DNA from: Bacteroidales bacterium
GTDB lineage: Bacteria > Bacteroidota > Bacteroidia > Bacteroidales > UBA932
NCBI GenBank assembly: GCA_017558775.1
Contig: JAFYTP010000007.1
Location: forward strand, 1-38,185
Direction of reading: 5' to 3'
DNA length: 38,185 nucleotides
In this document: piece by piece, positions 17,838-20,490 of the stretch
How positions within the stretch are numbered: the stretch's first letter is position 1
Layout: each line of letters opens with the position of its first letter
The notes under the pieces: model-generated
Databases searched by the model: none
The model's input: only the letters and a program-made list of their open reading frames with translations
Told to the model about the DNA's origin: nothing
Made by a program: the position numbers and the translations under genes

Positions 17838-17868
17838 CAAAATTATGTAAATTTGCAGACTTATCAAA
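17838..17868 (-). promoter_or_regulatory. Promoter of ruvA
   Basis: On the minus strand, TTTG (17868-17865), a 19-bp gap, then TAATTTTG (17845-17838). This is a full match to the Bacteroidetes -33/-7 consensus. The -7 box ends 4 bp before the ruvA ATG (17833), so the transcript should start at or next to the start codon. Confidence 0.65.
17848..17855 (+). promoter_or_regulatory. -7 box (TAAATTTG) of sufS
   Basis: A perfect TAnnTTTG, back to back with the ruvA -7 box (2 bp apart, opposite strands). No TTG is found at the -33 spacing. The predicted sufS leader is about 15 nt. The box also shows that an upstream TTG codon at 17853 cannot be the start of sufS. Confidence 0.5.
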
Positions 17869-17873
17869 GAAGT

Positions 17874-19100
17874 ATGACGGTACAGGAAATCAGAAGCCGG
17901 TTCCCGGCGCTCGCACAGACGGTATACGGCAAACCGCTCGTGTACCTGGACAACGCGGCCACCGCGCAGCGGCCGCTTGCCGTGCTCGAGAAAGAGTTCG
18001 TGTTGGCCTCCAAGTCCAACGCGAACATTCATCGCGCCGTCCACAAGCTTGCGGTCGACGCGACGGAAGAGTACGAGAAGACGCGCGACGCTGTCCGAGA
18101 TTTCCTGGGGGCCGGGAGCAGGGAAGAGATCGTCTTCACCTCGGGAGCCACGATGTCCATCAACCTCGTCGCCACCTGTTTCGGTGAAGCCTTCGTCGGA
18201 GAGGGGGACGAGATCATCGTCTCGGTCGCCGAGCACCATTCGAACATCGTCCCGTGGCAGCTGCTTTGCCGGCGCAAAAAGGCCGTCTTGAAAGTCTTTG
18301 AGATTGACGAATTTGGCGGCCTGATGGTCGACTCCCTGGAAAAATTGATTTCTCAGCGCACTAAAATTATAGCTATCTCTCACATTTCCAATGTGTTAGG
18401 CCTTGTAAATCCGGTGCGGGAAATTGTACAGATAGCGCACAATCACGACATTCCGGTGCTCGTGGACGGCGCGCAGGGGAGCGTTCACGAGAAAATCGAC
18501 GTCCGCGAGATGGACTGCGATTTTTACGCGTTCTCCGGACACAAGGTGTACGGCGCGACCGGCACCGGCGTCCTGTACGGGAAAAAGAAATGGCTCGAGT
18601 CGATGCCGCCGTACATGGGCGGGGGAGAGATGATCGAGACCGTCCGGTTCTCCGGAACGACCTTCGCTCCCGTACCCGGCAAGTTCGAGGCGGGCACGCA
18701 GAATTTCAACGCCGTCCCCACCCTCCAGGAAGCGCTCCGGCTGGCCCGAGAATTCCAGGAGGATGCGGAAGTGATTGAGAACCAAAAGAATATAACGGAA
18801 TATCTGCTGACGGTGATGACCAGCGACCCGCGCATCCACCTCTATGGTGTTCCCCGTGGAACGGCGGAGAAGACCCCGATCTTCTCCTTCACCGTGGAAG
18901 GGGCGCATCACGAGGACCTCGCGCTCATCCTGGACAAGATGGGCATCGCCGTCCGCTCCGGCCAGATGTGCGCCGAGCCCCTCATGGACCGTTTCGGCGT
19001 GACGGGCATGCTCCGCGCCTCCTTCGCCCCGTACAACACGCTGGAAGAGGCGGAGTATTTTGTGAAGTGTTTGAATAAGGCTATTGCAATGTTAGTTTAG
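17874..19100 (+). CDS. sufS: Cysteine desulfurase SufS
   Basis: 408 residues from ATG 17874 (MTVQEIRSRFPALAQ). It is a PLP-dependent class V aminotransferase-fold enzyme that takes sulfur from cysteine for Fe-S cluster assembly. Landmarks: LVYLDNAATAQRP near the N-terminus, NIHRAVHKLA, FTSGATMSIN, the PLP Lys224 in SGHKVYGATG, and the catalytic Cys366 in RSGQMCAEP, where other SufS enzymes have RTGHHCAQP. The C-terminal MLRASFAPYNT is typical. The stop (TAG) is followed directly by a palindromic repeat and then by the SufE-SufT fusion gene. A weak parS-like sequence lies in its 3' half (18848-18863). Confidence 0.94.
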   Translation: MTVQEIRSRFPALAQTVYGKPLVYLDNAATAQRPLAVLEKEFVLASKSNANIHRAVHKLAVDATEEYEKTRDAVRDFLGAGSREEIVFTSGATMSINLVATCFGEAFVGEGDEIIVSVAEHHSNIVPWQLLCRRKKAVLKVFEIDEFGGLMVDSLEKLISQRTKIIAISHISNVLGLVNPVREIVQIAHNHDIPVLVDGAQGSVHEKIDVREMDCDFYAFSGHKVYGATGTGVLYGKKKWLESMPPYMGGGEMIETVRFSGTTFAPVPGKFEAGTQNFNAVPTLQEALRLAREFQEDAEVIENQKNITEYLLTVMTSDPRIHLYGVPRGTAEKTPIFSFTVEGAHHEDLALILDKMGIAVRSGQMCAEPLMDRFGVTGMLRASFAPYNTLEEAEYFVKCLNKAIAMLV

Positions 19101-19124
19101 ATGCCCGATCAGGTCGGGCATGAC
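19100..19124. repeat. 25-bp palindromic repeat, copy B
   Basis: G, ATGCCCGA (19101-19108), loop TCAGG, TCGGGCAT (19114-19121), GAC. The first G is the last base of the sufS stop codon. The repeat offers an in-frame ATG (19101) 30 bp before the likely sufE start. Confidence 0.85.
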
Positions 19125-19130
19125 GGAAGA

Positions 19131-19970
19131 ATGACTTTAGAAGAAAAGAAACAGGAAGTCATCGAGGAGTTCTCGATGTATGAAGAGTGGCTGGACCGGT
19201 ATGAGTACTTGATCGAGCTGGGGAAGGCGTTGGAGCCGTACCCGGAGGAGGAGAAGACCGAGGAGAAGCTCATCAAGGGCTGCCAGTCGCGCGTGTGGTT
19301 GGACTATGAGGTGAAGGACGGAAAACTGTATTTCCGGGCCGACAGCGACGCGATCATCACCAAGGGTATCATCTCCCTGCTGATTTCCGTCTATTCCGGC
19401 CGCACCCCCGCGGAGATTGCGGCCGACGATTTCGGTTTTGTCGATGCCATCGGCCTGCGCGAAAACCTCTCTCCGACCCGCGCCAACGGCCTTGTGTCGA
19501 TGATTGAGACCATCAAGGCGGCCGCCGCGGAGATGGCGGGTCAAGCCCGCCATGACAACGGAGAAAACAATGTCATTCCGGGCTCGACCCGGAATCTCTC
19601 CAAGGAAGTGCTTACCGCTGAGGACGTTGCGGCCCTGCAGCCGCTGTATACGGACGTGATTCTTGCGCTCAAGCAGGTGTATGATCCGGAGATTCCGGTT
19701 AATATCTACGACCTGGGACTCATCTACGAGTTGAACATTGACAAGGAAAGGAAGGTGTCCATCGTGATGACCTTCACGGCCCCGAACTGCCCGATGGCGG
19801 ATGAGGTGCTGCACGAGGTGGAAGAGAGCGTGAAGCGGGTGCCCGGCGTGACCGGATGCACCATCGAACTGACCTTCGAGCCGGTCTGGGACCGGAGCAT
19901 GCTGTCCGAAGAGGCCCGGGTGGACCTCGGTTTGGACTATGAGGAAGACGAATACGGGAAACTGAGTTAA
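19131..19970 (+). CDS. sufE: SufE-SufT(DUF59)-like fusion protein joined by a repeat-derived linker
   Basis: 279 residues from ATG 19131. Residues 1-134 are a complete SufE: the catalytic Cys lies in KGCQSRVWL at position 51, the same number as in E. coli SufE, which supports this start. Residues about 170-279 are a DUF59/MIP18-type domain (YDPEIPVNIYDLGLIYEL and MTFTAPNCPMADEV with Cys220), as in SufT and PaaD, which help mature Fe-S proteins. Residues about 135-160 (MAGQARHDNGENN, then VIPGSTRNLS) are encoded by two palindromic repeats (19532-19556 and 19572-19596). The reading frame stays open throughout. A GTG at 19608 could start the second domain alone, but it has a poor ribosome site. 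If the upstream ATG 19101 is used, 10 repeat-coded residues are added. SufE takes sulfur from SufS, whose gene is directly upstream. Confidence 0.85.
   Translation: MTLEEKKQEVIEEFSMYEEWLDRYEYLIELGKALEPYPEEEKTEEKLIKGCQSRVWLDYEVKDGKLYFRADSDAIITKGIISLLISVYSGRTPAEIAADDFGFVDAIGLRENLSPTRANGLVSMIETIKAAAAEMAGQARHDNGENNVIPGSTRNLSKEVLTAEDVAALQPLYTDVILALKQVYDPEIPVNIYDLGLIYELNIDKERKVSIVMTFTAPNCPMADEVLHEVEESVKRVPGVTGCTIELTFEPVWDRSMLSEEARVDLGLDYEEDEYGKLS
19532..19556. repeat. 25-bp palindromic repeat, copy C (inside the SufE-SufT reading frame)
   Basis: G, ATGGCGGG (19533-19540), loop TCAAG, CCCGCCAT (19546-19553), GAC. It is translated as MAGQARHD in the linker of the fusion protein. Confidence 0.85.
19572..19596. 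repeat. 25-bp palindromic repeat, copy D (reverse orientation, inside the SufE-SufT reading frame)
   Basis: GTC, ATTCCGGG (19575-19582), loop CTCGA, CCCGGAAT (19588-19595), C. It is translated as VIPGSTRN. It has the same stem as copy A at 7623, with one base changed in the loop. Confidence 0.85.
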
Positions 19971-20453
19971 ATGGCGTTTGTGAGCGTATATCTGGGCCTG
20001 GGGTCCAACCTGGGGGACCGTCGGAAGAACATCGAACGGGCCCTGGAGCTGTTGGACGAGGGGTTCGGATGTCACTACACGGCGCTGTCCCGGCTCATCG
20101 AGACCAAGGCCTGGGGGTTCAAGGGCGATAAGTTCCTGAACGCCTGCGTGTTGTACCGGATTTACCGGAAGGGGACGCCGGAGGAGCAGGGGCACGAGAT
20201 CCTCGCCCTCTGCAAGGACATCGAGCGCGCCCTCGGCCGGGACGATGCGCCCGAATTCGATGCCGACGGCAAGCGGATTTACCACAACCGCACCATGGAC
20301 ATCGACATTCTCTTTTATGGGAAGGAATATATTGACACAGAGGACTTAACGGTGCCGCATCCGCTTATCGCGGAACGCGATTTCGTCAAGATTCCCCTGG
20401 CGGAAATCGCAAAACCCTCCCTCCGCGCCGCGTTTCCCGAATATTTTATGTAA
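19971..20453 (+). CDS. folK: 2-amino-4-hydroxy-6-hydroxymethyldihydropteridine pyrophosphokinase (FolK)
   Basis: 160 residues. The N-terminus has VYLGLGSNLGDRRKNIERAL, the standard HPPK opening. NRTMDIDILFYG (from about residue 106) carries the two metal-binding Asp residues, followed by VPHPLIAERDFVKIPLAEIA. The enzyme transfers pyrophosphate from ATP to the pterin in folate synthesis. Its ATG follows the stop of the SufE-SufT gene with no gap. Its stop (TAA 20451-20453) forms the first bases of a -7-like box (TAATTTTG) for glyQS. Confidence 0.95.
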   Translation: MAFVSVYLGLGSNLGDRRKNIERALELLDEGFGCHYTALSRLIETKAWGFKGDKFLNACVLYRIYRKGTPEEQGHEILALCKDIERALGRDDAPEFDADGKRIYHNRTMDIDILFYGKEYIDTEDLTVPHPLIAERDFVKIPLAEIAKPSLRAAFPEYFM

Positions 20454-20458: not shown

Positions 20459-20465
20459 CGAGCTA

Positions 20466-20490
20466 GATGCCCGATCAGGTCGGGCATGAC
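20466..20490. repeat. 25-bp palindromic repeat, copy E
   Basis: G, ATGCCCGA (20467-20474), loop TCAGG, TCGGGCAT (20480-20487), GAC. It is identical to copy B over the full 25 bp. It supplies an in-frame ATG 48 bp before the likely glyQS start. Confidence 0.85.

Follow-up and report, generated by a model that had tools for sequence, protein, structure and literature searches.

SufE and SufT, two proteins of Fe–S cluster assembly, are as a rule produced as separate polypeptides. In the window, by which we mean the whole stretch of 38,185 nucleotides analysed here, a SufE domain and a SufT-like domain share one open reading frame, and part of the linker between them is encoded by palindromic repeats. 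Is this gene a genuine fusion, and did the repeats create it? A first-pass annotation of the DNA had proposed that a repeat insertion removed the stop codon between two adjacent suf genes. The gene fusion is real and recurrent. The repeats in its linker are probably passengers and the joining itself the more telling event, because the same joining was found in several groups of relatives, mostly without repeats.

The fused gene and its neighbourhood

The frame of the fused gene contained no internal stop codon (Table 1). The first-pass annotation had described a full SufE and a full DUF59 domain in this frame, which the Pfam matches confirmed: the product scored 156.5 bits with PF02657 (curated cut-off 27) and 67.9 bits with PF01883 (curated cut-off 23.5). 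The GCQS motif of the SufE half and the NCPMAD/TCPMAD motif of the DUF59 half were both present in all 22 distinct fused loci described below, and Cys51 and Cys220 were invariant across 15 aligned fused proteins. Cys51 of the GCQS motif is presumably the persulfide-carrying cysteine of SufE. The DUF59 half is called SufT-like here, because the score of the fused protein with TIGR02945 (133.9 bits) was under the equivalog cut-off of 143.4.

Table 1. Positions of the fused gene, its domains, the neighbouring genes and the repeat copies in the window.
Feature	Position	Strand	Basis
sufS, SufS-family cysteine desulfurase, directly upstream	17853..19100	+	TIGR01979, 507 bits (cut-off 475.1)
REP copy A, ahead of the fused gene and overlapping the stop codon of sufS	19099..19124	+	Exact pattern match
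Fused sufE-sufT gene, 279 aa	19131..19970	+	Open frame, Pfam domains and fused orthologues
SufE domain with Cys51	19161..19520	+	PF02657, residues 11–130, E 3.2e-46
REP copy C in the linker (MAGQARHD)	19531..19556	+	Exact pattern match
REP copy D in the linker (VIPGSTRN), head-to-head pair with C	19572..19597	-	Exact pattern match
DUF59/FeS_assembly_P (SufT-like) domain with Cys220	19653..19865	+	PF01883, residues 175–245, E 9.5e-19
HPPK gene (folate pathway kinase), next downstream	19971..20453	+	PF01288, E 2e-30
REP copy downstream of the HPPK gene, ahead of the gene that follows	20465..20490	+	Exact pattern match

The longest open reading frame of the fused gene starts at 19101, within a REP copy (MPDQVGHD). 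The start at 19131 is supported, since 14 aligned relatives begin at, or adjoining, the Met encoded there and the longer frame begins inside the repeat. Likewise, the longest frame of the gene after HPPK, which we take to encode glycyl-tRNA synthetase, starts at 20467 within a REP copy (MPDQVGHD). The N-termini from 19101 and 20467 are probably spurious.

The genome assembly comprises 2.63 Mb in 128 contigs and is 88% complete. The fused gene was the sole SufE match in it; at this completeness, a second SufE could be missing from the assembly. A 357-aa frame at another location contained the sole other DUF59 match, and the SufBD matches were on another contig.

Palindromic repeats in the window and in the genome

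The repeat pattern was derived from the window copies themselves. It gave five exact matches in the window, compared with none in 100 shuffles, and 94 matches with up to two mismatches in the whole genome, compared with none for the reversed control. Most of the 94 genomic matches were single copies. Repeat pairs less than 110 nt apart were oriented head-to-head like copies C and D in 14 of 14 cases (counted by eye), as was one pair 111 nt apart on contig C92. Inspected by eye, the repeats showed an 8-bp stem starting with AT, a 5-nt loop and a CGTC/TGTC head, the base before GTC being read only in part of the copies. The tail started with CT in nearly all genomic copies and does not fit CCA. 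With these features, the window repeats fit the description of the published CGTC-type REPs.

Copies C and D encode residues 134–156 of the fused protein. The first-pass description of a linker of about 25 residues, nearly all of it repeat-coded, is apt for these 23 residues but not for the full distance from one Pfam match to the other, which spans residues 131–174. The RNA of the C/D pair was predicted to fold into one long hairpin with a minimum free energy (MFE) of −38.7 kcal/mol (z −4.85); none of 200 shuffles reached this stability.

The survey of in-frame repeats took 30 loci from the 94 matches (5 in the window), and 17 long frames over 14 loci were scanned for Pfam domains. The repeat was situated inside or between Pfam matches in three of the 17 frames, encoding a Mur ligase, an M16 peptidase and a ferredoxin-like protein. 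In four frames the repeat was outside the region matched by Pfam, and the other ten matched no Pfam domain. The copy in the Mur ligase frame (L041, minus strand) was in frame within the N-terminal domain match; the copies in the M16 peptidase (L038) and the ferredoxin-like protein (L048) were also in frame.

A resident RAYT transposase was considered as the source of the repeats; no Y1_Tnp match was found in the window's own genome (88% complete). Y1_Tnp matches were present in 30 of 41 genomes of the genus (1 to 6 per genome); most of them were weak, and the frames usually measured about 300 aa. A CGTC hairpin was located near two of 20 such loci in the genus. Shuffled sequences gave 0.4, and the repeat density of the window's own genome predicts 2.1 for the 58,490 bases concerned. 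Since the observed number, though above that of the shuffles, is about what this density predicts, we claim no link between the repeats and Y1_Tnp.

Fused and separate loci among relatives

Searching the genus gave matches in 86 of 101 genomes, the window's own included. After three genomes with fragmentary matches (G002, G091 and G093) had been left out, 83 loci remained, and the sufE/sufT junction was fused in 14 of these. A scan of further genome contigs yielded 80 more loci, of which 14 were fused. Removal of identical copies reduced the 163 loci to 144 distinct ones (83 from the genus search and 61 from the further contigs, some of them outside the genus). The two-domain arrangement, which the first-pass annotation had suggested looking for in related genomes, was found in 22 of these 144 distinct loci. 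The closest relatives were mostly Bacteroidales assemblies from ruminant or horse gut, and one was Candidatus Cryptobacteroides faecihippi; the window itself probably belongs to Cryptobacteroides. A literature search for a SufE–DUF59/SufT fusion gave no title or visible start of an abstract describing one.

In a SufS+SufE+DUF59 protein tree with 144 tips, the fused loci were placed in eight groups, all within the part of the tree spanned by genomes of the same genus. These groups were L122/L124; L008, L014 and L018–L020; L007; L137/L141; L064; L009; L073; and the clade of the window gene, hereafter the window clade. Parsimony on this tree required nine changes from an unfused root, compared with a mean of 20.8 and a minimum of 15 in 1000 label shuffles. 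Some deep nodes were weakly supported; with nodes under 0.8 collapsed, the number of changes was still nine. The ninth change is due to an unfused locus, L163, within the window clade and represents either a reversal or a second gain. The remaining nine of the ten clade members were fused (L001–L005, L116, L117, L119 and L123). Their linkers spanned 44 to 71 residues, with seven distinct lengths, all in frame. In one of these relatives, L005 (same as L120), 14 residues were absent shortly past Cys51 (window-protein positions 54–67, as aligned), through either a true deletion or a fault in the assembly.

Beyond the genus, and within the E-value limits used, both domains were covered by the alignments of 26 order-level and nine phylum-level genomes. 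Genomes with a best match weaker than the limit (219 of 247 at order level, 286 of 296 at phylum level) were left out. Three of the 35 spanning loci were fused through the whole DUF59 domain (L219, and L251 and L254 from one genus) and 29 were unfused; L214, L248 and L253 were not judged.

In unfused loci, the gap between sufE and sufT had a median of 1 nt. It was within 25 nt in 105 of 121 loci, and the genes overlapped in 50 of the 121. These gaps were measured to the ATG nearest to the sufE stop, a procedure that favours small gaps; one of the 122 unfused loci had no such ATG and was left out. Because the separate genes mostly abut or overlap, a small indel would be enough to fuse them.

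Repeats and the origin of the fusion

No repeat was recognised in the linker of 14 of the 22 fused loci, and repeat-driven fusion was therefore rejected as a general rule. Junction repeats were recognised in eight of the 22 fused loci compared with three of 121 unfused ones (L193 left out of the count). This excess reflects relatedness, since all eight loci came from two of the eight fused groups, namely the window clade and L007. The three fused linkers outside the genus contained no recognised repeat of either of the two types found. These repeat-free fusions, together with the small gaps between unfused genes, contradict the notion that a repeat insertion was needed for fusion. What stands of the first-pass proposal is the fusion itself and the repeat-coded linker; as a general account of the cause, the removal of a stop codon by repeat insertion does not.

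Within the window clade, repeats and fusion coincide more often. Seven of the nine fused members carried a recognised repeat, six of the CGTC type and one (L117) of a second type. The six had one to three CGTC-type copies in differing places. L119 was fused without a repeat and none was recognised in L003. With this high share of repeat carriers, the fusion and the arrival of the repeat may have happened at about the same time in this clade.

The unfused clade member L163 may have kept the old unfused state, as the start of its DUF59 domain resembles that of the unfused locus L121. Trees of six gene segments gave no resolution at the base of the window clade. The best trees placed L163 among the fused members. 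A tree with one fusion event and L163 outside it was worse but was not rejected (AU p 0.14 and 0.20), and neither was a grouping of L119 with L163 (AU p 0.46 and 0.61). An origin of the fusion in the window clade by a 1-nt deletion, as suggested by L024, was discarded because L024 is not the nearest unfused relative.

Repeat-driven fusion within the window clade is possible. Overall, the repeat linker has the appearance of a common REP invasion at a permissive site. We found no literature on palindromic repeat insertion in Bacteroidales linkers, and no title on such repeats was among the matches listed for Cryptobacteroides.

Weighing of alternative explanations

We consider it likely that neighbouring sufE and sufT genes fused recurrently and that REPs accumulated in the tolerant linker. 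An alternative for the window clade is that insertion of the REP pair between sufE and sufT abolished the sufE stop codon and thereby made the fusion. The linker repeats in most of the fused clade members agree with this, as does the repeat sequence at the end of sufE in L066 and L069, two related unfused loci. However, fused members with no recognised repeat exist in the clade (L119, L003), repeat content and position vary among its members, and six of the other seven fused groups lack a recognised repeat. We therefore regard an origin by REP insertion as rather unlikely. A different role for the pair would be that its hairpin, in the linker mRNA, slows ribosomes so that each domain folds alone. 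The predicted stability of the hairpin speaks for such a pause, but any head-to-head REP pair is expected to fold in this way, and in several fused relatives at most one repeat was recognised. A function in pausing is thus highly improbable.

The fusion could also be nominal in the window clade if two proteins were made from one frame, the second one from an internal start in the linker. All nine fused clade members, and 16 of the 22 fused loci, have an in-frame ATG somewhere in the linker. In the window one such ATG is situated at the start of repeat C, and an ATG occupies the matching place in the linkers of L002, L003, L004 and L116. The ATGs are, however, not at one place: the ATG that opens repeat C has been lost from L005, L117, L119 and L123. 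The linker has no ATG in six of the 22 fused loci, which belong to other groups. Three of these six (L014, L020 and L073) also lack GTG and TTG, so that fusion is hard to avoid there; L019 has a TTG. The first-pass annotation had named GTG 19608 as a potential start of a second protein. This candidate was dropped, since the codon is GTC or GTT in all eight fused clade relatives. Two separate products are, in our judgement, improbable. The same annotation had also considered a sequencing error hiding a stop or frameshift, and an assembly of 128 contigs that is 88% complete could contain one. Because eight other clade genomes carry the same two-domain frame, such an artefact is very unlikely, to the point of being nearly negligible.

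Predicted structure and proposed role

The fused protein was modelled with AlphaFold2 from 46 sequences (12 full fused proteins and 34 single-domain pieces). The model had a mean pLDDT of 84.3 and a pTM of 0.63, and both domains were confident; the relative placement of the domains is not readable from it. In the model, the C-terminal helix of the SufE domain continues as far as residue 141 and so takes in the first residues encoded by the repeats. Residues 144–157, mostly repeat-coded, were below a pLDDT of 50, which fits a linker that is predicted to be a flexible, largely disordered tether. Among sequences in the PDB, none covered both domains; the 13 matches covered one half each.

SufE hands persulfide sulfur from SufS towards the scaffold (PMC8593673). 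For M. tuberculosis SufT, interactions with SufS and SufU that require its DUF59 cysteine have been reported (PMC9045647). Since SufE relays sulfur from SufS and M. tuberculosis SufT interacts with SufS and SufU, a SufT domain tethered to SufE at SufS is plausible. We infer that the window gene encodes a tethered sulfur-transfer/maturation protein.

The fusion history that we favour would have started from separate sufE and sufT genes, abutting or overlapping, downstream of sufS. Small changes would have repeatedly joined the two into one frame in this genus, and the window clade would carry one such fusion, possibly two. Linker length would then have varied with the frame kept, while CGTC-type REPs accumulated (here one head-to-head pair), as is also seen in further genes and spacers of the genome. 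In the resulting protein, Cys51 of the SufE part would receive the persulfide from SufS. The DUF59 half, via Cys220, would contact SufS, the SufBCD scaffold or client proteins, and the tether would hold both activities at one site. We infer both the order of events in the window clade and this biochemical role.

The function of SufT is still debated. Eight locus groups in and around one genus, plus others in the phylum, tie SufT physically to SufE, a sulfur carrier, and this recurrent tie makes a direct role of SufT beside SufS and SufE testable. Tentatively, the recurrent fusion might signal that SufT acts with SufE at sulfur transfer in Bacteroidota and not only as a late carrier, with REPs serving as ready-made in-frame linker modules that lengthen fusions. 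The locus is also a clear case of mobile-looking palindromic repeats within a conserved protein whose frame is unbroken.

Comparison with known systems

Like SufE (PF02657), the window protein has the complete domain, with Cys51 in the GCQS motif, and its gene adjoins sufS; it differs by the second domain at the C-terminus. Like SufT/DUF59 (PF01883; TIGR02945), it has the complete domain with the conserved cysteine. In contrast to SufT, this domain is situated behind SufE and scores below the equivalog cut-off of TIGR02945.

Fusions of DUF59 are known from the architectures S2–S9 and from an Nfu–SufT fusion in Oligotropha (PMC4982691). Section 6 of that study, whose set consisted of complete genomes up to October 2011, names no architecture in which SufE is the partner. 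The window protein resembles these architectures in that DUF59 is joined to a part of Fe–S assembly, for example a U-type scaffold domain in the published set.

An earlier study described CGTC-tagged REPs, among them the Rickettsia repeats RPE-4 and RPE-6, and already listed Bacteroidetes (PMC3733652). In that study, most of the tails, though not all, fit CCA, and copies within open frames of other species were already reported. The window repeats differ by their CT tail, compared with the usual CCA, and their genus is not named in sections 6, 14 and 15 of the study. They share with the CGTC-tagged REPs the 8-bp stem starting with AT, the 5-nt loop, the CGTC/TGTC head, the arrangement in head-to-head dimers and the occurrence of in-frame copies.
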